This document shows, in pieces, positions 31,266-44,646 of a stretch of 64,000 nucleotides of DNA. The DNA comes from an uncultured Opitutia bacterium (GTDB taxonomy: Bacteria; Verrucomicrobiota; Verrucomicrobiia; Opitutales; Opitutaceae). The stretch is from contig CAIMFY010000094.1 of assembly GCA_903840415.1 (NCBI GenBank), positions 124,001 through 188,000 on the forward strand. Reading direction: 5' to 3'. How positions within the stretch are numbered: position 1 is the stretch's first letter; each line of letters starts with the position of its first letter. Below the pieces are notes generated by a model. It searched no databases and was not told the origin of the DNA. It saw nothing but the letters and a program-made list of their open reading frames with translations. A program made the translations under genes and the position numbers.

Positions 31266-32888
31266 TTACGGGTATAAGACCTTTGAGACCGGCGCACTAC
31301 TGACCACTTCATGATCGTTGGGCATCCCCGGATTGCTGTGCAGCGTCACGACCACCGAATAGGTGGCGCCTTGGGCAAAGGGATTGTTCGGGGCCGCGTA
31401 GGATCCACCGGCAACATTGACTTGGATCTGCGTGGAGCTGAGCAAGCTGACGCCATTGTAAATGCCCACATTGTTGCGGGTTATCCTGACCAGGCACTTG
31501 GGGATGAAACCAAGCCCGGTGATGGTGAAATGATAAACGTAACCTTTGTCCTGCGTTCCCTCCGGGCCGATGACGGCCGTGACGTCGGTGATGACGGGCC
31601 GGACCATCACTTGCAGAGGTGGAATCGGCGCTACGTCCGCAGAGGTGTCGGTGGAACCGAACATCACCGTCGCCGGGCCGATCACGGTGCCACCGTTGAG
31701 CTGGGCGTTGAGAATTTGCTGTGGGTCGAGTGTAAACAGCGGGCCGATGCTGGCGGTCACCCGCGACGCATCGGAGGACGTCACATTCAGGGCGACGAGC
31801 TGGTCGCTCTTATTCCAGAGTTGGATCTGCTGTGCGGCTTGTGGGCCGCCCGCGACATCGAGCGTGAGTGACGCGGGAGTGACTTGCACGCTATCCGGCG
31901 GCAACACCGTCACGGCCGGCCCCGTGCGGCTGTCCGCGCCATTCACCGTGGCTAGCAGCGTGTAGGTGCCGGGTGTCTGATCGGGCGGAATGGTGCAGAG
32001 CACGAACGCATTGGTCGGATCGAGCGTGCGGCCAATGATCGTCCGGGCGTGAGCGCTGTTTTCCAGTGCGATGGTCGTTGCGCCCGCCACGAAGCCGAGA
32101 CCGGCGACGGCCAACTGGGCTTTGCGATGAATCGGCACAAGGCCGGTCGGCGCGGTGATCACGGGGCGAACGATGACATCGGCACTGGCGTCGTGGCCGT
32201 TGCACGCCGGGCGCACCTGGGCGGTGAGGCGACCCGTGCCCGCGAGCACGCCTTGAACCGGGAGCGTGACCGGCACGACTTGCGGCGGCTGGCCGGTCGG
32301 GGTCAGGCTCACCGCGGGCGTGGGCGACGAACCCGTGAACCGAAGATTGGGCGGGGCCGAGACGGACACGGTCGCGGCGGCCTGCGGCAGGTCCTGCTGT
32401 TCGCCGACCGCGAGCGTGCCCGACTGGCCGAAGTCGAGGTCGACCGTCGCCGGCGAGAGCGTGATCGCCGCGCGCGCGATGGTGAAATAACAGGTGACAT
32501 TGCGCGCGGCCGGCCGCGGGTTTCCCTGCACCGAGACTATACCGTCGGCCTTGAGCGTGTGCTTGCCATCGCTGAGTTCATCGCAGCTCAGCATCGCGAT
32601 CATCGCGGATTGCGCCGCATCCCAGTGAAATGCCGGTGTGATTTCGCGGCCGTCGAGCAGGACATGGAACGTCGCCGCCGACATGGTCTGAAACGGCTTC
32701 ACCACGATGGGAAATGCCCCGGCCGGGCCTGAAAACGGCGGGCTCAAGACGGCATTGTCAACCGGTTGAACTATGGTCAGCCGCGGGATCGGAATTTTCG
32801 GTGTCGTCAACTGGGCGAGAAGATCAAGCGGGGCCAGGAGCGCGACAAACAATGCTACGCATGTGGCAAACGGGTTGCGCGTTTTCAT
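31266..32888 (-). CDS. exported protein with IPT/Ig-like repeats
   Basis: A 540-residue exported protein. Residues 1-25 are a signal peptide (TCVALFVALLAPLDLLA). The rest is beta-rich with at least three similar modules of about 90 residues, each having short strand patterns such as GLGFVAGATTIAL and GLGFIPKCLVRIT, with a TYTLLATVNGADSR/ATYSVVVTLHSNP-type end. These are typical of IPT/TIG or bacterial Ig domains found in cell-surface and carbohydrate-associated proteins. No catalytic motif is visible. It is last in the long minus-strand run, 97 bases after the GH2 gene, so a binding or scaffolding role in the pectin locus is possible but not shown. Confidence 0.7.
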   Translation of the reverse strand: MKTRNPFATCVALFVALLAPLDLLAQLTTPKIPIPRLTIVQPVDNAVLSPPFSGPAGAFPIVVKPFQTMSAATFHVLLDGREITPAFHWDAAQSAMIAMLSCDELSDGKHTLKADGIVSVQGNPRPAARNVTCYFTIARAAITLSPATVDLDFGQSGTLAVGEQQDLPQAAATVSVSAPPNLRFTGSSPTPAVSLTPTGQPPQVVPVTLPVQGVLAGTGRLTAQVRPACNGHDASADVIVRPVITAPTGLVPIHRKAQLAVAGLGFVAGATTIALENSAHARTIIGRTLDPTNAFVLCTIPPDQTPGTYTLLATVNGADSRTGPAVTVLPPDSVQVTPASLTLDVAGGPQAAQQIQLWNKSDQLVALNVTSSDASRVTASIGPLFTLDPQQILNAQLNGGTVIGPATVMFGSTDTSADVAPIPPLQVMVRPVITDVTAVIGPEGTQDKGYVYHFTITGLGFIPKCLVRITRNNVGIYNGVSLLSSTQIQVNVAGGSYAAPNNPFAQGATYSVVVTLHSNPGMPNDHEVVSSAPVSKVLYP

Positions 32889-35782: not shown

Positions 35783-38212
35783 TCACGGCTTGATCCGCGG
35801 GGGCGTCAGCGCGAGGCGCAGTCTGGCGCACGTCTCGAAGGAACCCAGGAAAATGTTTTCAGGAAACGTGCGGTGGCCGACGAGATCGTTGTAAGCGTCG
35901 GCACCGCGGGTGGAGTCGAGTTGCAGTCCGGCGAGATATTGCAGATGGAGGCTGCGATCGGTGTTGAGTTCCGCGCCGGCGAGCCATGGTTGCAACTCGG
36001 CGGCGCAGCCGGCGTAAGTAGCGAGGAGAGCGTGGGCCGAGCCGAGGCTGACATCGGCGAGCGAGTTTGTCACCGCGGCATGGTCTGGGCGTTCGAGGCG
36101 GGCCTGCAAAGCGTCGACCTGAATGTGTAGCGGCACGACTTGGCCGAGCACGACGGTGTCGTAGCCGTAGCCCTCGTCATCATTGCCCCAGATCGTGCCT
36201 TCGGGAAACGCGGCGAAAAACGTCGCGATCTCGCTCTGCACGACGGCGCGGCTGCTTTCGTAGCAGGGCACCCACTGGGTGACGAAGCCGCCCGGGTTGA
36301 GATGCTGGCGGCAGAGTTCGAAATATTCGCGTGAGTAGAGCACCGCCGCGCCCTTCACCCACGGATGAATCGGATCGGAGGTGATGATGTCGAATTTTTC
36401 CCCGATGGTCGCGAGGTAGTGTCGGGCGTCATCATAGACGATTTCGACGCGGCGGTCGTGAACCACATCGTAGTTTTCGGCGATGAATTGCGGTGCAACG
36501 CGCCGCGGAATCAGCGGCTCGATCTCGCAGATCACGATGCGCTCGATGGACGGATGGGGTATGAACGAGCCCGCGGTCACACCGGCGCCGCAACCGACGA
36601 CGAGCACCGATCGCGGGTGCGGGTGGACCAACGCCGGCAGGTGGCCGAGCATCCGCTGGAGCCGCATATCCTTAAAAAGACTCGAGGCCTCGGTCTTGCC
36701 GCTGACATGAAAATACCGGGCGCCGTCGGTGGCCTGGGTGACGGCGACAGTGGCGTTGATGCCTTCGCCGAGGAACAGCACCTTGGCGGTTTGGTCGCCG
36801 CTTAGCAACTGGCGGCCATAAGCGACGAGTTGCCACGGGATGGTGGGCAACGTGACGCCCAGCACGGCAGCCAGCGCCGCCGCTGCACCCGTTGCGCTCC
36901 AGTCGGAAGAATTGCGCGGCCATAGAAGCACGCCGCCCGCGACGGCCGAGGCGGCAATCAATGCCCGCTCGGTATCCACTGTCCCAAGCCACGGGAGCAG
37001 CACGAGGCTTGTGAGCACGGCGCCGACGATTGCGCCGAGGGTGTTGGCGGCGTAAACTCGGCTGACCGTGGCACCGGGATCTTCGCGACAAGTGCTGGCG
37101 GCGAGGGCCAGTGGAAAACTCGCCCCCCACAAAAATGCCGGTGGCAGGATCGCGCAGGCGCAGCGGACGAGATCGATTTGAAACTTGATCCAGTGGCTGG
37201 TGGCCGCGGTGGCGTTGATCGGCCAGAACGGGAGCGAGCTAGCCATGAGGTGCGCCGCCCAGGCGATGGCGGCGACTTGGAGCAGTTGGCAGCAGCCGAG
37301 GCCGAGACGCGGACGCGCGGTGGTGCGGGCGAGGAGCGCCCCGAAACTGCTGCCGAGTCCGAGGCCGGCGAGAAACACCGCGAGAATGATCGAGAACGTG
37401 TAAACCGTCGCGCCGAGCATCAGCGCCAGCAGGCGCGTCCAGATCACCTCGGCGCTCAGAGCGCACAGGCCGGACACCGCGATCGCGGCGAGCACCACGC
37501 GGGTCTTGGGATCAGCGCCGGTTTCGCGCTGCCCGGAGGTTGACGAGGATGCGTGCGCCGCGGCGTGATGCAGCGAAAACCTTGAGAGGATGAGCGCTCC
37601 GGCGGCGACGATCAGATTGAGCGCTACGGCGCACCACGTGGCGTAGTGCAGGTCGTGCACACGGAGCAGATAGAATCCCGCCAACAGGCAGCCGGCGACG
37701 GCGCCGACGGTGTTGCCTCCATAAAAAAATCCGAGCCACGAGACGCCGCGCGGCGTCGCCTCAACCGAGCGCGCGAGTGCCGGCAGCGTTGCACCCAAGA
37801 GAAGCGTGGGCGGCAGCAGGCAAATGGCGGCGGCCGCGCCGCGCAGAAAAATCCCTGGCAATCCGTGTCCGACGACCGCTGTATAGAATCGGGCGACGCC
37901 AGGCATCGCAAACGTCACGACGAGGGCGGTGAGCGCGATCCCAATTTCGAGGGCGGCGTAGATGCGCAACGGATGCCGCGCAGCGGAGACGAAGCGGGGC
38001 AGCGCGAGGCTGCCGAGGCACATGCCCCCCATGAACGTGCCGAGGAGCACCGCCAGCGAGACGGCCGACGATCCGACGACGAGTTGGAGCACTTGCAACC
38101 AGACGACCTCGTAAATCAGCGCGGCACACCCGCTGCCGACAAACAGCACGAAGAGCAGCGGCAGGAAACGCGGTGCGGATGACGGAGTCGGAGCAGAATC
38201 GGAATCGGGCAT
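35783..38212 (-). CDS. fused multi-TM/spermidine-synthase-like protein
   Basis: An 809-residue protein. The first 450 or so residues contain many hydrophobic segments (for example AALIYEVVWLQVLQLVVGSSA and ICLLPPTLLLGATLPALARS, which recur in a second half), an internally repeated membrane part. The last 300 residues have a Rossmann-type spermidine-synthase fold with VVGCGAGVTAGSF, IVICEIEPLI and DIITSDPIHPW. The family is called fused MFS/spermidine synthase, but function is unknown. The polyamine-site DExxYHE-type motif is replaced by SLFKDMRLQRMLGHL, so polyamine synthesis is doubtful. It lies seven bases after the GH43-like gene and is part of the pectin run, where it might serve in export, signalling or sugar-acid chemistry. 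Confidence 0.8.
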   Translation of the reverse strand: MPDSDSAPTPSSAPRFLPLLFVLFVGSGCAALIYEVVWLQVLQLVVGSSAVSLAVLLGTFMGGMCLGSLALPRFVSAARHPLRIYAALEIGIALTALVVTFAMPGVARFYTAVVGHGLPGIFLRGAAAAICLLPPTLLLGATLPALARSVEATPRGVSWLGFFYGGNTVGAVAGCLLAGFYLLRVHDLHYATWCAVALNLIVAAGALILSRFSLHHAAAHASSSTSGQRETGADPKTRVVLAAIAVSGLCALSAEVIWTRLLALMLGATVYTFSIILAVFLAGLGLGSSFGALLARTTARPRLGLGCCQLLQVAAIAWAAHLMASSLPFWPINATAATSHWIKFQIDLVRCACAILPPAFLWGASFPLALAASTCREDPGATVSRVYAANTLGAIVGAVLTSLVLLPWLGTVDTERALIAASAVAGGVLLWPRNSSDWSATGAAAALAAVLGVTLPTIPWQLVAYGRQLLSGDQTAKVLFLGEGINATVAVTQATDGARYFHVSGKTEASSLFKDMRLQRMLGHLPALVHPHPRSVLVVGCGAGVTAGSFIPHPSIERIVICEIEPLIPRRVAPQFIAENYDVVHDRRVEIVYDDARHYLATIGEKFDIITSDPIHPWVKGAAVLYSREYFELCRQHLNPGGFVTQWVPCYESSRAVVQSEIATFFAAFPEGTIWGNDDEGYGYDTVVLGQVVPLHIQVDALQARLERPDHAAVTNSLADVSLGSAHALLATYAGCAAELQPWLAGAELNTDRSLHLQYLAGLQLDSTRGADAYNDLVGHRTFPENIFLGSFETCARLRLALTPPRIKP

Positions 38213-38219
38213 CGCGAAC

Positions 38220-39182
38220 TCACGGTGACACCGGAGCCGCCCGCAGGCGAGCGACGATCTCGGCTGGCACGGCGATGATCGTGCCGTGCTTCATGCGGGT
38301 GGGCGTGCCTTCATCGACAAAGGTCATTTTGGCCGTGACGTCTTCCCATGTTTTCAAATCCCGCGAGCGCATCGCGCAGTAGTGCTTCTTCATGTAGGCC
38401 TCGAAATAAACGAGGTAGTCGTCCCCGATTTTAATGGCGGTCGGCCCCTCGGACCAGAGGCCGGCAGGCGTGAACGGCGCGCCGAGTTCGCCGAATGGTC
38501 CGTGCAGATCGGCGGCGGCGGCGACACGCAAAAATTTTTTCGGCGGGTTGCGTGTCTCGTCCTTCACGATGAGCCAGTGCCGGCCGTCGGCGTGGAGAAA
38601 CGTCGCGTCGATAACACTAAAACCGGGGTCGTAGAAAAGACCGGTCGGAGCAAACGTGGCGAAGTCCTTCGTCGTCGTGGAATAGATCCGGTGGTTGTAA
38701 TTGTCCTCCGACGCGCCGGCAGTCTCGGAAAATTTCCCCGGTATCGTTGAGGCCCAGAAGATGAGAAACTCGCCGCGTTTTTCGTCGTAGTCGATTTCTG
38801 GAGCCCAGGAGTTGCGGACGGTGGGTTCGTGCGCCATCACCGGGAGTTCCCTTTCCGGTGACCAAGTGATGAAATCTTTGGTTGAAGCGTAGCCGATGTC
38901 GTTCTCGGTCCAGCCGGCGGTCCATACCAGATGAAACGTGCCGTCCGGCCCGCGCACCACGCACGGATCGCGCAGGAGTTTGGAACGGCCGACGGTGGGC
39001 GCCAGGTAGCTTTTGCCGTCGTTGAGTTTTTCCCATTTGTAGCCGTTGGCGCTCCACGCGAGGTGCAGGCCGTCTTCGCCGTTTTTGGTAAAGTAAGTGA
39101 AGAGATAAACGGTCGCAGGTGCGGCGGCGCGCACGAGAGACGCGAAGAGGAACAGGAGAAGGCAGGCGCGCAGTGATTTCAT
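38220..39182 (-). CDS. exported GH43-like five-bladed propeller glycosidase
   Basis: A 320-residue exported protein whose signal peptide is MKSLRACLLLFLFASLVRAA. A five-bladed beta-propeller pattern is indicated by repeated HLVWTAGW, STKDFITWSPERELPVM, EFLIFWAST and DYLVYFEAYMKKHYCAMRSRDLKTWEDVT stretches. Candidate catalytic residues are the Asp in LLRDPCVVRGPDG, and the acidic residues of SWAPEIDYDE and SEGPTAIKIG. Family GH43 enzymes act on arabinan, xylan and galactan side chains; the exact substrate is open. The ATG at 39182 overlaps the TGA of the upstream CE12 gene by four bases, so it is translationally coupled. A frame extending upstream is rejected as it lies inside that CE12 gene. 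Confidence 0.8.
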   Translation of the reverse strand: MKSLRACLLLFLFASLVRAAAPATVYLFTYFTKNGEDGLHLAWSANGYKWEKLNDGKSYLAPTVGRSKLLRDPCVVRGPDGTFHLVWTAGWTENDIGYASTKDFITWSPERELPVMAHEPTVRNSWAPEIDYDEKRGEFLIFWASTIPGKFSETAGASEDNYNHRIYSTTTKDFATFAPTGLFYDPGFSVIDATFLHADGRHWLIVKDETRNPPKKFLRVAAAADLHGPFGELGAPFTPAGLWSEGPTAIKIGDDYLVYFEAYMKKHYCAMRSRDLKTWEDVTAKMTFVDEGTPTRMKHGTIIAVPAEIVARLRAAPVSP

Positions 39183-40477
39183 TTGGTAGGGACGACCGGG
39201 GCTTCGTCGCCGAGGGGGCGGATGTTGGTGAAGTTCGGGCTCGCGGGCACCGCGAATTTCTCGACGGCGTCCGGATGCGCCGGATCGATGTCGTTGAAAT
39301 CGTCGACGATAAATTTGGCCAGCGGGAGTTTCAGCTCGCGAATGGACTGCACGATGCATTTCGAGAGCTCGTAGCTGCCGTAGTTTTGGTGATGGGTGTT
39401 GTCCTGTCCCGCGAAGGCGCGGCGCGAAAATTCCGGCCCGTGCGCCTCCAGCGCCTCGTAAAATGGAATGCTCATCGCATTCAGGTCGATGAAAGCGACG
39501 CCGAGTTCCTTCGCCGCCTGCCGCGAGGCTTCGGCATAGTCGGCGAGGGAAAGTTTGATTTTTCCGTGCTCATCGAAATTTCTCCGCTCCATCGGCGACA
39601 CGATGATTGGAGTGCCGCCGTGGGCGCGGACGGCGTCGACGTGCACCTTGATCTCGGCCTTGTAAGTGGTGAACGGCCCGCCGATGCCGGCGGCGATCTG
39701 TTTCTGATCGTTATGGCCGAACTGCATCAGCATCCAATCGCCGGGCTTCATCACGCTCAGCATTTTGTCGAGGCGGCGGCGGCCGATAGAGTCGCGGTAG
39801 GTCTCGCCAGATTCGGCGTGGTTCGCGATCGCGAGGTCGGGCTTGAACCAGCGCGGGAGCATCTGGCCCCAGCTGTTGAAGGGCTCCTTCGATTGATCGC
39901 ACACGGTAGAATCGCCGATGAGGAAGACGGTCGGCACGTTCACCGGCTCGATCGCGATCGCGCTGACGGCGGGGTGGATGCCGTTGAACTCAAGGGTGAG
40001 CGCGTCGTCCCACGCCCAAGCTTCCTGCACACTTTCGCGCGGCGCCTTGAGTTTCACCACGCCGGCCTTGATATCGCCTACTGCGGCGATTTTTGGCGTG
40101 CGGGTGTTAACGATGAAGGTGCGGATCGTGGTCTGGCCCGCGGGCACGGTGACGTGCTCGACCATCAGGCGGCGCAGCTCTGCCTTCACGGTGGCGTCGG
40201 TGCCGCCGGGAAACATGATGGTGACGCGGTAGTTGCCCTCCGCCGGCACGGTGGCGGTGAAATAAAACGGCGTGGTGCTCGTGACGCCGTCGGCGTTGGC
40301 AGTGAGAGTCGCGCCGGGTTCGAAGCCGAATGCGCGACCGCTGGCAAACACAGCATCGGCGACCACGGCACTCGCGCCAGCCGGGGCCACGCGCGAACCG
40401 AAGGAGAACTTCAGCGGCTCGGCAACCGCGGAGCAAAGCAGGGTCAGAGCGAGTGCGAGGAGCAGGCGTGCATTCAT
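39179..40477 (-). CDS. exported rhamnogalacturonan acetylesterase (CE12), copy 2
   Basis: A 432-residue exported SGNH-fold esterase. The signal peptide is MNARLLLALALTLLCSAVA. Residues 20-175 form a beta-sandwich region (FSFGSRVAPAGASAVVADA, GNYRVTIMF). The catalytic domain follows with FLIGDSTVCDQ (nucleophile Ser190), WGQMLPRWF, ANHAESGET (Gly oxyanion), QFGHND (Asn), and the DNTHHQNYGSYEL segment with the Asp-His pair. CE12 enzymes deacetylate galacturonic acid residues in rhamnogalacturonan. It lies 13 bases after its paralogue and overlaps the GH43-like start by four bases. All SGNH residues are intact. Confidence 0.92.
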   Translation of the reverse strand: MNARLLLALALTLLCSAVAEPLKFSFGSRVAPAGASAVVADAVFASGRAFGFEPGATLTANADGVTSTTPFYFTATVPAEGNYRVTIMFPGGTDATVKAELRRLMVEHVTVPAGQTTIRTFIVNTRTPKIAAVGDIKAGVVKLKAPRESVQEAWAWDDALTLEFNGIHPAVSAIAIEPVNVPTVFLIGDSTVCDQSKEPFNSWGQMLPRWFKPDLAIANHAESGETYRDSIGRRRLDKMLSVMKPGDWMLMQFGHNDQKQIAAGIGGPFTTYKAEIKVHVDAVRAHGGTPIIVSPMERRNFDEHGKIKLSLADYAEASRQAAKELGVAFIDLNAMSIPFYEALEAHGPEFSRRAFAGQDNTHHQNYGSYELSKCIVQSIRELKLPLAKFIVDDFNDIDPAHPDAVEKFAVPASPNFTNIRPLGDEAPVVPTK

Positions 40478-40490
40478 AGATTAGGTGAGA

Positions 40491-41786
40491 TCAGTTACCG
40501 CGTGGCACGAGGTTGGTGCGGCCGGGGCTCGCGGCGAGCGTGAAGCTCTCGACCGGGTCGGGATGCGCGGGATCAAAACCGGTGAAATCCGGCGAGATGA
40601 ATTTCGCGAGATCGAGATGGTTCGCGCGCAGTCCCACCACGACGCACTTCGCGATTTCATAGGCGCCGTAGTTATCGTGGTGCGTGGGATCGCGGCGCTC
40701 GCCAGAACCACTGAACGCGAGAGGTGCTTTCGCGGGGCCGAGCGCTTCGTAAAGGACGGCGCTGGCGGAGGACAGGTCGATGAATGCGACACCTTGTTCC
40801 TGCGCGAGCTCGCGGACCGCGGCGGGATAGTCGCCGTGCGAGTTTCTGATTTTGTCCTGCTCATCAAACTGGCGGCGCTGCACGGGCGAGATGAGCACAG
40901 GAGTCGCGCCGCGGAGACGCGCCTCGGCGATGAAGACGCGCAAATAGGCTTGATAGGTCGTGCGCGCCTCGACGTAGGTCTGCGGCCAGCTCTGCTTCTC
41001 GTCGTTGTGGCCAAACTGCATGAGCAAGTAGTCCCCACGTTTCATCTGGCTGAGGATTTTCGCGAGCCGCAGCCCGGCGATGAACGACTTCAACGTTTCA
41101 CCGGACTCGGCGTGATTCGCCACGGCGAGCTCAGGCGTGAACCATCGCGGCAGCATCTGCCCCCAACTCGCCCCCGGCTCGCGCGGCTGATCGGTGACGG
41201 TAGAGTCGCCGGCGATAAAAATCGTCGGAAGGTTTTCGACGCGCAAAATCTCCAGCGCACTGAGGCACGGGCGCGGACCGTCGAACTCCAGCGTGAGTTT
41301 GTCGTCCCAGTGGAGCACGAGGGCGCCACCCGGGCCGCCCTTGAGTTCTCGATCGTTCAGCACGACGTGGTCGCCGCCGGGGGCGTTGAGGGGCGGTGGC
41401 GGAACTTTGGCGTTGCGGACGTTGACGATAAATTCGACGTGCGGCGCCGTAGTGGCCTCGACGGCGAGCCGGCGCGACTCGGCCTTGATGGTCACGGGTG
41501 CCGTGAGCGGACCATCGCCGAGCGTGACGCTCACTCGATAATTGCCTTCGGGCACTTTGGCGGAGAAGAGAAACGGTTTGTCGCTCGAGACCGAATGCGC
41601 GGCGGAGGATAGGGTGGCACCGGGCTCGAAACCGAAACCGCGATCCGCGGAATAAGTGGTGTCGGCGGACACCGTTGTAGAGTTAGACGGTGCCGTTTCG
41701 GAACCGAAGGAAAATTTCCAGCTCGTCGGCTCAGCGGCGAAAACTGATGTGGTGATGAGAAAGGCGGAAGCGAGGGCGAATCTCAT
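40491..41786 (-). CDS. exported rhamnogalacturonan acetylesterase (CE12), copy 1
   Basis: A 431-residue exported SGNH esterase closely parallel to its neighbour. A signal peptide (LASAFLITTSVFAAEP) leads into a beta-sandwich (FSFGSETAPSNS, GNYRVSVTL), then the CE12 domain with FIAGDSTVTDQ (nucleophile Ser195), WGQMLPRWF, ANHAESGET, QFGHND and the DPTHHDNYGAYE region. Compared with the neighbour, it has a GGDHVVLNDREL insertion before the domain junction and shifts in the substrate loops, hinting at differing acetyl positions or substrates. The pair look like a tandem duplication that has diverged. Upstream is a 108-base gap before the first alpha/beta-hydrolase. Confidence 0.92.
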   Translation of the reverse strand: MRFALASAFLITTSVFAAEPTSWKFSFGSETAPSNSTTVSADTTYSADRGFGFEPGATLSSAAHSVSSDKPFLFSAKVPEGNYRVSVTLGDGPLTAPVTIKAESRRLAVEATTAPHVEFIVNVRNAKVPPPPLNAPGGDHVVLNDRELKGGPGGALVLHWDDKLTLEFDGPRPCLSALEILRVENLPTIFIAGDSTVTDQPREPGASWGQMLPRWFTPELAVANHAESGETLKSFIAGLRLAKILSQMKRGDYLLMQFGHNDEKQSWPQTYVEARTTYQAYLRVFIAEARLRGATPVLISPVQRRQFDEQDKIRNSHGDYPAAVRELAQEQGVAFIDLSSASAVLYEALGPAKAPLAFSGSGERRDPTHHDNYGAYEIAKCVVVGLRANHLDLAKFISPDFTGFDPAHPDPVESFTLAASPGRTNLVPRGN

Positions 41787-41894: not shown

Positions 41895-42884
41895 TTATCG
41901 TTTCAACAGGCCAAGGTCGCCGAGCCAATCGAAGAAGCGCAGGTGCCAGCTCGACACGGCGAAGTCGGGCCGGTCATTGCGCACGCCGAAACCGTGGCCG
42001 CCGCGGTTGTAGATGTGAAGTTCCGCGCTCACGCCGGCTTTGCGCAACGTCGAGAACAGCGCGGTGAGCTGATCGGACATGCGGTCGTCGGCGGCGCACG
42101 CGAGAAACGCCGGGGGCGTCGACTCCTTCGACCACGTAAGGTCGGTGCGTTGCAGGCCGCCGGGATAAATCGGCGCGAAGAAATCCGGCCGCGAACTTAC
42201 GCGCTCTACGGAATCGGCCGCGTTGGGCTGGCCGGCGTCGTGGTGGGCCGCGGTGAGGAGGGCGAGTTCGCCACCCGCGGAAAACCCCATGATGCCGATG
42301 CGGTTTGGCTCCACGCCCCACTCGGCGGCGCGGCTGCGCACGAGCCGGATTGCACGCTGCGCATCGGCCTGCGCGTGGGTTTCAATCGTGTAGGGCTGCG
42401 GCGCACCCTTCGGCGTGGAGGTGTCGTGGGCGAGCCGGTTCTTCAACACGAACGCCGCGATGCCACGTTCGGCGAGCCAACGCGCGAGATCGTAGCCCTC
42501 ACGATCGATCGTGAGCTGCATGTGGCCGCCACCGGGTGCGATGATGACGGCGCAACTGGTCGCCGTGTCTTTCGCCGGCAAAAACGGTGTGAGCGACGGA
42601 CGGTGGATGTTGGAGATGACCGGAAAAACGATGTCGGGCTCTTGGCGCCAGCTGATCTGTTCGGGCTCGGCCGCGCGCGACTCAGAGTCGGGCGCGCCAT
42701 TCGGCCAGAGTGGCAGGGCCGCGACATGCTGGGATTCGACGGCATCCTTCGCCGGAACAACCGGACCGCCCGGCGAAAGATTCTGAGGAAATGGCGGGAC
42801 GGCGCGCGGCGTGAGCGAGTCGGCGGCTCGCAGCAGTGTCAGCATCGCAATCGCGAAAAGCGGAAGCAGGTTTCTTTTCGCCAT
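41895..42884 (-). CDS. exported alpha/beta-hydrolase, third of three tandem copies
   Basis: A 329-residue exported serine esterase. The signal peptide is MAKRNLLPLFAIAMLTLLRAA. Compared with the other copies, it has an additional 30-residue Pro/Gly/Val segment (LSPGGPVVPAKDAV) before the conserved LPLWPNGAP start. The oxyanion motif is APGGGHMQ (116-123), the nucleophile elbow is GFSAGG (Ser202), CAADDRMS holds the likely Asp, and GGHGFGVR the His. The family is the BD-FAE/acetyl-xylan esterase group. The ATG at 42884 is two bases from the preceding stop, so co-translation is likely; the alternative ATG at 42926 would overlap the neighbour. Confidence 0.85.
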   Translation of the reverse strand: MAKRNLLPLFAIAMLTLLRAADSLTPRAVPPFPQNLSPGGPVVPAKDAVESQHVAALPLWPNGAPDSESRAAEPEQISWRQEPDIVFPVISNIHRPSLTPFLPAKDTATSCAVIIAPGGGHMQLTIDREGYDLARWLAERGIAAFVLKNRLAHDTSTPKGAPQPYTIETHAQADAQRAIRLVRSRAAEWGVEPNRIGIMGFSAGGELALLTAAHHDAGQPNAADSVERVSSRPDFFAPIYPGGLQRTDLTWSKESTPPAFLACAADDRMSDQLTALFSTLRKAGVSAELHIYNRGGHGFGVRNDRPDFAVSSWHLRFFDWLGDLGLLKR

Positions 42885-42886
42885 GA

Positions 42887-43756
42887 TCAGGGATTGGCGG
42901 CGAGGAATTTCTGATTCACGAGCCATTCGCGAAACCGATCCGGCCAGCCGACCGACGGACCGGGGCGGAGACCAAAGCCGTGGCCGATGCCAGCGTAAAT
43001 GTGCATCTCAACGGGCACGCCGGCTTGTTTGAAGAGCAGGTAAACTTTCGGCACGCCCTCGGAAATGTCCGGGCGATCATCGGCGCCACAGCACAGAAAA
43101 GCGGGCGCCGCGCCTTTCTCCGGCCTGATCTTCTGCGACTGGCCCGGATAAATCAGGCCCTGAAACGCCGGCCGCGCATCGAGGCGATCGATCGGATCGG
43201 CGGCGTTGGGATTCCCAGCGTCGGGGTGCATGGCGGCGAGCGCGGTCACTTCGCCGCCCGCGGAGAATCCAATGATGCCGACGGTGGCGGCGTTGACGCC
43301 CCACTCGGTAGCGCGGCTGCGCACGAGTCGGATGGCGCGTTGCGCATCGGCGAGCGCGTCGCGTTCGATCGTGTAGGGTTGCGGCGCGCCGGCGGGCGTC
43401 GCGTCGTCGCGGGCGAGTCGGTTTTTCAAGACGAAGCCGGCGATGCCGTGGTCGGCGAGCCATTGGGCGATGTCGTAGCCCTCTTTCTGCATGACGAGGT
43501 TGCGGTGGCCGCCGCCGGGACAAACGATGACCGCTGTGCCCGTGGCCTTGTCCTTCGCAGGAAGATAAACTGTGAGTGTGGGAAAGTGGATGTTCGAGAC
43601 GCTGTTGCCGACGATTTTTTCGGCTTCGTTTTTTCGGGCCTCGGAGCCGGGGGCGCCGTTGGGCCAGAGCGGAACGACGGGCTGGGAGTTGGCGGCGAAG
43701 CCGGAGGTCGTCAGCGCGAGGGCAACGAGCGTGAAGGCAAGTTTTGGGTGACACAT
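42887..43756 (-). CDS. exported alpha/beta-hydrolase, second of three tandem copies
   Basis: A 289-residue exported serine esterase. The signal peptide is residues 1-22 (LAFTLVALALTTSGFAA), with the mature protein starting VVPLWPNGAPGSEARK. The oxyanion motif is CPGGGHRN (79-86), nucleophile GFSAGGEV with Ser165, the likely Asp is in CGADDRPD, and the His in GIGHGFGL. The open frame continues far upstream into the preceding gene, but that sequence is arginine-rich and out of frame with the neighbour, so the internal ATG with signal peptide is used. It starts 17 bases after the first tandem copy and ends two bases before the third. Confidence 0.85.
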   Translation of the reverse strand: MCHPKLAFTLVALALTTSGFAANSQPVVPLWPNGAPGSEARKNEAEKIVGNSVSNIHFPTLTVYLPAKDKATGTAVIVCPGGGHRNLVMQKEGYDIAQWLADHGIAGFVLKNRLARDDATPAGAPQPYTIERDALADAQRAIRLVRSRATEWGVNAATVGIIGFSAGGEVTALAAMHPDAGNPNAADPIDRLDARPAFQGLIYPGQSQKIRPEKGAAPAFLCCGADDRPDISEGVPKVYLLFKQAGVPVEMHIYAGIGHGFGLRPGPSVGWPDRFREWLVNQKFLAANP

Positions 43757-43773
43757 AGAATTGAAGGATGAAA

Positions 43774-44646
43774 TCACGGTGCGGTTGCGTTGATAAATTT
43801 CCTGCTCACGAGCCAGTCGTGAAACCGATCGGGCCAGTCGCGGACGCCGACAGGATTCTTTTCCTGAATACCAAAGCCGTGGCCGACACCAGCGAAGATA
43901 TGCAGTTCCGCGCTGACGCCGGCCTTGCGGCACGCCGCGTAGAACGCCGGATAAGGCTCGGAAATCCGATCGTCGCCGCCGCACGCGAGGAAGAGCGGCG
44001 GCGTTTCCTTGGATAGTGCGAGATTGGCGCGCGTGAGGCCGCCCGCATACATCAGCGCCGCGAAACCGGCTCGTGAGCCCTGGCGATCGATGGGATCGTT
44101 GGCGTCGGGGTTGCCCGCGTCGGGTCGCGTGGCGGCGAGGACGGCGAGTTCGCCGCCGGCGGAGAATCCCATCACGCCAACGCGCGCCGGATCGATACCC
44201 CATTCGGCGGCGTGCGCACGGACCAGGCGAATCGCGCGCTGCACATCGATGAGCGCGTGACCCTCGACGGTGTAGGGCGACTTGCCGCCGGTAGCTTCAT
44301 CGCGGGCAAGGCGGTATTTGAGCGCGAAGCCCGCGATGCCGTGCGCCGCGAGCCATTGCGCGACGGCGTAGCCTTCGTGTGCGATGGTGACGTGGCCGTG
44401 ACCGCGGCCCGGCGCAATGACCGCGGCGCAGCCAGTGGCTCGATCGCGCGGTGGAAGAAAAACCGTCAGCGTGGGAAAATTGACGTTGGTGACGCGCTCG
44501 TTGACCACTTTCTCCGGCTCGTCTTTACGGGACTCGAAACCCGGCGCGCCATTGGGCCAGAGCGGGACGACGGGATGGTCATCCACGGCGACCAGACGTG
44601 CGGCTGAAAGTGCGAGCAGTGCAAGCCGGCAACGCGAGGTGATCAT
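43774..44646 (-). CDS. exported alpha/beta-hydrolase, first of three tandem copies
   Basis: A 290-residue esterase of the same group. A signal-like N-terminus (RLALLALSAARLVAVD) precedes HPVVPLWPNGAPGFESRKDE. The nucleophile elbow is GFSAGG (Ser162), the likely Asp is in CGGDDRIS, and the His in GVGHGFGI. The oxyanion-hole motif reads APGRGHGH, with Arg81 replacing the middle Gly of the GGG found in its paralogues (and in the enzyme at 54-971), which may alter substrate or activity. It follows the PL22 gene by 13 bases and precedes the second copy by 17. Confidence 0.83.
   Translation of the reverse strand: MITSRCRLALLALSAARLVAVDDHPVVPLWPNGAPGFESRKDEPEKVVNERVTNVNFPTLTVFLPPRDRATGCAAVIAPGRGHGHVTIAHEGYAVAQWLAAHGIAGFALKYRLARDEATGGKSPYTVEGHALIDVQRAIRLVRAHAAEWGIDPARVGVMGFSAGGELAVLAATRPDAGNPDANDPIDRQGSRAGFAALMYAGGLTRANLALSKETPPLFLACGGDDRISEPYPAFYAACRKAGVSAELHIFAGVGHGFGIQEKNPVGVRDWPDRFHDWLVSRKFINATAP

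Follow-up and report, generated by a model that had tools for sequence, protein, structure and literature searches.

In the spermidine synthase (SPDS) of Datura, the single exchange D103I was reported to end spermidine synthesis and to bring about methyl transfer at a low level, which the exchanges Q79T and V106T increased (Junker et al. 2013, PMC3725402). According to Kozbial and Mushegian (PMC1282579), the carboxyl group of SAM cannot be accommodated beside the glycine-loop Asp, and nicotianamine synthase, which is without the acidic residue, moves the aminocarboxypropyl group. A membrane-bound case is the fungal NHMT (AN4663), in which seven transmembrane helices are joined to a SpdSyn-like domain with Ile at the acidic position; this enzyme adds a methyl group to the histidine at the N-terminus of secreted LPMOs and needs its membrane part to do so, and the authors of the study raise the problem of SAM supply to the ER (PMC10349129). 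A 7TM-fused relative is described in PMC11237479 by its gene context (PspA/DUF350 operons) and not by its function. Proteins built like the one studied here are collected in the NCBIfam family NF037959, 'fused MFS/spermidine synthase'; our literature search on this subfamily and on the fused protein found no tested function or functional study, in keeping with the original prediction that such fusions have no established function.

The gene lies in a window of 64,000 nucleotides (the whole stretch of DNA that was analysed) from an uncultured Opitutia bacterium, where it forms a single intact ATG-started frame of 809 aa (35783..38212, minus strand) encoding an MFS transporter and a spermidine-synthase-like transferase. 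The product scores 113 bits against NF037959 (cut-off 40), which makes it a member of that family, and we noted no difference from its architecture. No paralogue was found in the genome to which the window belongs (G000). A wide scan of one genome per species confirmed at least 535 relatives among at least 596 stretches, and the best 80 of these (51-72% identity in the best segment, mostly near full length) were analysed. The reading that we favour, with a probability of roughly 0.6, is an MFS fold fused to a SAM-dependent transferase that most likely N-methylates an amine or guanidine substrate handled by the transporter half. The protein would then sit in the inner membrane as a 12-helix MFS transporter fold, an extra hydrophobic helix and a spermidine-synthase-fold transferase; the last of these would be suited to SAM, not to decarboxylated SAM (dcSAM), and would methylate an amine- or guanidine-bearing substrate at nitrogen, the transporter half handling or delivering that substrate. 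The membrane-linked transfer reaction proposed at the outset is likely.

The structure was modelled with AlphaFold, as the original prediction had suggested (alignment of 36 sequences; pLDDT 88.1, pTM 0.88), and an MFS fold and a spermidine-synthase fold were obtained. The first MFS half (residues 17-212; 37577..38164, minus strand) is made up of helices 1-6 at residues 17-46, 50-73, 81-113, 118-147, 154-185 and 188-212, and the second (residues 235-429; 36926..37510, minus strand) of helices 7-12 at 235-266, 270-297, 301-329, 340-373, 379-409 and 411-429. Both were assigned from the AlphaFold helices, the MFS fold and an internal repeat in the membrane half (33% identity over 163 positions, E 2e-12), which bears out the repeated multi-TM region expected there. 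A 13th hydrophobic helix (residues 435-453; 36854..36910, minus strand), assigned from the AlphaFold helices, loop charges and hydropathy, precedes the alpha/beta domain. On the predicted model, the N-terminal half is thus a complete pseudo-symmetric MFS fold of 6+6 helices followed by a 13th hydrophobic helix. Structure matches were taken from a Foldseek list and then aligned with VIA-align; residues 16-431 resemble MFS transporters, for instance 8x3k (VMAT2; Z 31.6, rmsd 3.4, 352 aligned, 10% identity), and monoamine carriers are among the top matches. A shared fold is no proof of function, and these matches give nothing certain on the cargo; Pfam MFS_1 gave no match to the protein. Charged residues of the MFS half are conserved in the best 80 of at least 535 relatives (E89 and R124 in 79 of 80 each; R260, D347 and R350 in all 80), and the transporter half therefore looks functional. 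That the transferase is coupled to transport seems to us an even question.

The spermidine-synthase-fold domain covers residues 459-779 (35876..36838, minus strand). Residues 459-766 align structurally with aminopropyltransferases (VIA-align, 1uir_B: Z 30.1, rmsd 2.9, 289 aligned), the match to 7xif_A spans model residues 459-779, and PF01564 matches residues 518-662 (E 2.2e-21). By motif position and alignment, SLFKDMRLQRMLGHL (residues 511-525; 36638..36682, minus strand) replaces DExxYHE, just as had been claimed; the substrate segment reads K-D-x-x-L-Q-R, against DExxYHE in SpeE, and Gln519, at position 79 of Datura SPDS, is retained. In the glycine loop GCGAGVT (residues 540-546; 36575..36595, minus strand) the alignment puts A543 where the dcSAM-selecting Asp/Glu would be and T546 at +3; by their place in the loop these two residues correspond to positions 103 and 106 of the Datura enzyme. 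EIE (residues 563-565; 36518..36526, minus strand), placed by motif position and alignment, supplies the acidic residues that end the second Rossmann strand, and SDPIHPW (residues 612-618; 36359..36379, minus strand) carries a DxxDP motif with His for its second Asp: in the alignment to 1uir, D613 falls on the first and H616 on the second Asp of DLTDP in Thermus thermophilus SpeE. EIE (563) and SDPIHP (612) stand where the original prediction had them, but the glycine loop (540) is not of the spermidine-synthase type that it named, because GCGAG is without the D/E of GxG(D/E)G.

Among the best 80 of at least 535 relatives, Ala543 is found in 79 and Ser543 in one, Thr546 in 79 and D613 in all 80, and position 616 holds His in 68 sequences, Asp in nine and Asn in three; K620, Y651, E652, D685 and N750 are each conserved in 76-80 of these sequences. 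Since CGAG was part of one scan pattern of the two, these rows were to some extent chosen for Ala543. In the 26 rows without Cys541, reachable only through the other pattern and hence the fair subset, Ala543 is found in 26/26 and residue 546 is Thr in 25 and Ser in one. Ten more distant family members have Ser or Thr at 543, never an acidic residue. It could be argued that the domain is non-catalytic and senses SAM, SAH or a polyamine so as to gate the MFS transporter as the working part, and both the conserved charges of the MFS half and the loss of the substrate-side motifs of spermidine synthase would suit this. We consider such a sensor rather unlikely, as D613 and the five residues just named are conserved beyond the apparent need of a cofactor-sensing pocket.

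A SAM-dependent enzyme, most likely a methyltransferase, is the reading to which the Datura mutants, the clash between the glycine-loop Asp and the SAM carboxyl group and the Ile of NHMT lead us. SAM is quite probably the cofactor, and a methyl group is somewhat favoured as the group transferred; a point against this reading is that putrescine N-methyltransferase (PMT) has Thr where the Gln is retained here as Q519. Since nicotianamine synthase is also without the acidic residue (PMC1282579), the domain might instead transfer a 3-amino-3-carboxypropyl group from SAM and make an exported metal chelator or a modified amine, and an MFS fusion would suit chelator export as the non-acidic motif I would suit the chemistry. 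We find this unlikely: T546 falls at the SAM-carboxylate contact modelled for methyl transfer (PMC3725402), and metal-uptake families are missing from the 25 listed, out of 122, for the 90 immediate neighbours surveyed below, the rest having at most one member each.

The methyl transfer predicted here has parallels in two described systems. In plant PMT, as is likely for the present protein, a spermidine-synthase fold is turned to SAM through exchanges where A543 and T546 stand here; it differs in being soluble, in having Ile at the 543 position and Thr at the Gln79 position, where Gln519 stands here, and in acting on putrescine, the DExxYHE segment being lost in the 809-aa protein (PMC3725402). 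Judged by analogy, the best experimental analogue is the fungal NHMT, with N-terminal membrane helices, a C-terminal SpdSyn-like domain and a GxG(D/E)G motif whose D/E has given way to a non-acidic residue; likened from its published description, it differs in being fungal and in having seven helices against 13 here (PMC10349129).

That the protein is a spermidine synthase can be dismissed with near certainty, to judge from its sequence and its genomes, since it carries A543 and T546, has lost DExxYHE and comes from a group of 34 close-orthologue genomes in which no AdoMet decarboxylase (PF02675) was found. These 34 genomes, counted by hand at a matched piece of at least 46% identity, include that of the window, which is 98% complete; PF02675 is present in 7/200 genomes of the bacterial family and in 8/14 control genomes. 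For the carboxyspermidine route, the NspC model gave no more than a weak match in the window's genome (25.2 bits, cut-off 409), and this route was rejected. All speE equivalogs fell far under their cut-offs, the best being polyamine aminopropyltransferase (150.7 against 472 bits). Each of these tests speaks against a spermidine synthase, in line with the missing polyamine motif of the original prediction: DExxYHE and the glycine-loop acid are gone, the equivalog cut-offs are not reached, and PF02675 was not found in the 34 genomes. A second PF01564 match in the window's genome (G000:C14, 23 bits, cut-off 22.9) was rejected as a second SpeE because it sits in a 413-aa RlmI-like rRNA methyltransferase.

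As an internal control, we used the membrane SpeE proteins L073, L074, L075 and L077, all four of which come from that bacterial family too. Each has a PF02675 (SpeD) match within 6 kb, and GGGDG, DExxYHE and DFPDP are each kept in all four; PspA lies beside L074, L075 and L077, and DUF350 was found at both loci tested for it, L073 and L074. The two proteins run against the polyamine aminopropyltransferase model (cut-off 472) passed it, L073 with 666.8 and L074 with 597.6 bits. Residues 229-645 of the 809-aa protein, that is its second membrane half and transferase, align on residues 12-415 of the 7TM membrane SpeE (PRK03612 type) of PspA/DUF350 operons, which shares the loop-charge pattern in the three proteins examined and has seven helices in a low-confidence model (pLDDT 59). 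It differs in having one membrane half, not two, in keeping GGGDG, DExxYHE and DFPDP, in lying near SpeD and in passing the aminopropyltransferase cut-off. The spermidine-synthase fold of the 809-aa protein, N-terminal beta domain included, and the retained D613 could still point to a genuine aminopropyltransferase serving some non-standard polyamine; with PF02675 absent from 34/34 orthologue genomes, three speE-type signatures lost or altered and every speE equivalog far under its cut-off, we hold this to be highly improbable. The name 'spermidine synthase' is misleading for this branch of NF037959, and polyamine reconstructions relying on it would be wrong.

The side of the membrane on which the transferase domain lies was approached through loop charges and hydropathy in 96 orthologues. 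The N-terminus and loops 2-3, 4-5, 6-7, 8-9, 10-11 and 12-13 carry a mean of 1.6-3.2 K+R per sequence and the remaining inter-helix loops 0-1, so that N-inside is favoured by the loop charges in 96/96. If helix 13 spans the membrane after 12 MFS helices, N-inside, the transferase would lie outside, and the same would hold for 7TM SpeE. The segment after helix 12 reaches a 19-residue hydropathy window of at least 1.2 in 96/96 orthologues and of at least 1.6 in 86/96; hydropathy alone is nevertheless weak proof of helix 13, because the transferase domain itself reaches these values in 89/96 and 44/96 and helix 12, although accepted, gets to 1.2 in no more than 63/96. Residues 451-476, after helix 13, carry 2.4 K+R and 1.84 D+E per sequence, a K+R content like that of the cytosolic loops, which lowered our estimate for an outward domain slightly. 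The SpeD-linked 7TM proteins L073, L074 and L077 show an N-inside, C-outside charge pattern, though dcSAM is made in the cytosol; since proteins that depend on cytosolic dcSAM share the pattern, it may be that the last helix does not traverse the membrane. An outward domain is further disfavoured since free SAM is not known from the periplasm.

It is nonetheless possible, though doubtful, that the protein is a self-fed extracytoplasmic SAM transferase, in which the MFS half would carry SAM outward and remove SAH, and surface lipids, polysaccharides or secreted proteins would be methylated outside the cell. If true, this would explain how SAM chemistry proceeds outside the cytoplasm, the supply problem that was raised for the ER (PMC10349129). 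By analogy, the half-MFS plus one helix of 7TM SpeE and the action of NHMT on proteins of the secretory route could be instances of a common design. An N-terminal PAP2_3 domain, which would suit chemistry at the membrane surface, is present in two remote members of the family, L066:7576-11241 and L067:8755-12543.

The surroundings of the gene fit the pectin locus that the original prediction described. A GH43-like gene, considered here as context only and assigned by profile match and codon-model call, lies upstream (38220..39182, minus strand, or as far as 39359 if an earlier start is taken), and the gap of seven bases between it and the fused gene was confirmed by measurement. Nearby are a GalB beta-galactosidase (1233.6 bits, cut-off 900), two GDSL esterases, three PaeX/BD-FAE-like esterases and an oligogalacturonate-lyase (PF14583) domain; although every NCBIfam esterase equivalog fell under its own cut-off, these neighbours would, on their profile matches, be compatible with pectin or galactan breakdown. 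The three tandem PaeX/BD-FAE-like esterases (41895-44646, minus strand) adjoin the two tandem GDSL esterases (39179-41786, minus strand), which looks like local duplication. The same run contains a 540-aa protein (31266-32888, minus strand) whose start, read from the sequence, resembles a signal peptide and for which no Pfam match was obtained at a threshold as loose as E 0.1, nor any NCBIfam match at 0.001; it may represent an unclassified secreted protein belonging to this pectin locus.

Whether this placement reflects the function of the fused gene can be judged from its relatives. Counting GDSL esterase, GH43 and PL22 clusters as pectin-type, such neighbours occur within three genes at 7/81 loci (the window and the best 80 of at least 535 relatives); all seven fall inside one 17-row clade of Opitutaceae, and over the tree the label changes six times. 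Among the bacterial family's 31 close loci, pectin-type neighbours (here with PaeX-type esterases added and L053, whose gene is uncalled, dropped) lie within four genes in 11. These counts are lower bounds because many loci are short. The site as such is common to several of these loci, with an HD-domain gene nearby in 13/31 close loci, and the pectin run is therefore a local arrangement. A working part in pectin breakdown, in which the protein would move or modify degradation products or secreted CAZymes, draws on the GH43-like gene seven bases away and on the same GH43 cluster standing immediately upstream in L033, L037, L038 and L039 too. The share of 11/31, the confinement of the 7/81 to a single clade and the neighbours elsewhere, where GH95, with a single member, is the one glycoside hydrolase family among the families listed for the 90, make this role very unlikely, and the part of the original prediction that concerned pectin was not upheld. 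The pectin-locus placement is a lineage-specific neighbourhood, not a function of the fused gene.

A further pair, DUF1552 with PSCyt/PSD (DUF1592/1588/1587/1585), or one member of it, is near the fused gene in 14/31 close loci (L033-L037, L039-L042, L049, L050, L052, L059 and L060) and in the Bryobacterales-type L142 and L154, one member per cluster having been tested by Pfam. Such pairs are common in these phyla; for this reason the pair was not relied on and was set aside as a partner.

Homologues lie largely outside polysaccharide loci, which speaks against the earlier view; the pattern seen outside the pectin clade is a recurring dimethylargininase-like gene and not a CAZyme. It is adjacent to the fused gene at 10/80 loci (best 80 of at least 535 relatives): L108, L118, L120, L122, L126, L134, L142, L143, L154 and L162, all outside the pectin clade. 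In L118, L126 and L162 it overlaps the fused gene by 4 bp on the same strand. In all ten the best model is NF045660 dimethylargininase, at 205-239 bits, and as 10/10 score below the cut-off of 340 the substrate is unproven. The neighbour scan excluded 21/80 loci (near relatives of the window, near-duplicates and a poor gene call), proteins shorter than 100 or longer than 800 aa, and 14/104 others, mostly partial, which left 90 immediate neighbours; PF02274 has nine and PF19420 eight of these, and the next family four. The gene is apparently not one inherited block, because on the FastTree tree of 95 rows, some of whose branches are weak, the label changes seven times.

The occurrence of NF045660 (E 1e-20) was also compared with that of the fused gene across genomes. 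Among 200 genomes of the bacterial family it was matched in 14/34 with a close orthologue against 9/166 without (Fisher p 3.7e-7, ignoring relatedness); by genus, counted by hand, the figures are 7/12 against 5/37 (p 0.004), and in one of the seven, g37, the NF045660 match and the fused gene are in different species. No dimethylargininase homologue was found in the window's own genome, and in the phylum sample NF045660 was matched in 0/43 genomes with a family match and in 4/387 overall. As far as gene order and profile matches go, we take the association as a hint at guanidine or amine chemistry, and an amine or guanidine as the substrate of the predicted methyltransferase is accordingly a tentative assignment.

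The best 80 of at least 535 relatives come from Verrucomicrobiota, Planctomycetota, Acidobacteriota, Gemmatimonadota, Latescibacterota, Aminicenantes and others. Some family match was found at 1e-10 in 60/200 genomes of the bacterial-family sample and at 1e-20 in 43/387 of the phylum sample, most of the 43 being remote homologues. G030 holds three full-length paralogues and a distant one, and G061 two paralogues; one paralogue of each groups with a Gemmatimonadota branch. C-terminal TPRs are present in L063 and L070. The metagenome-bin titles 'Bordetella parapertussis' and 'Akkermansia muciniphila' (L142, L096 and L111) look misnamed, L142 grouping with Bryobacterales.
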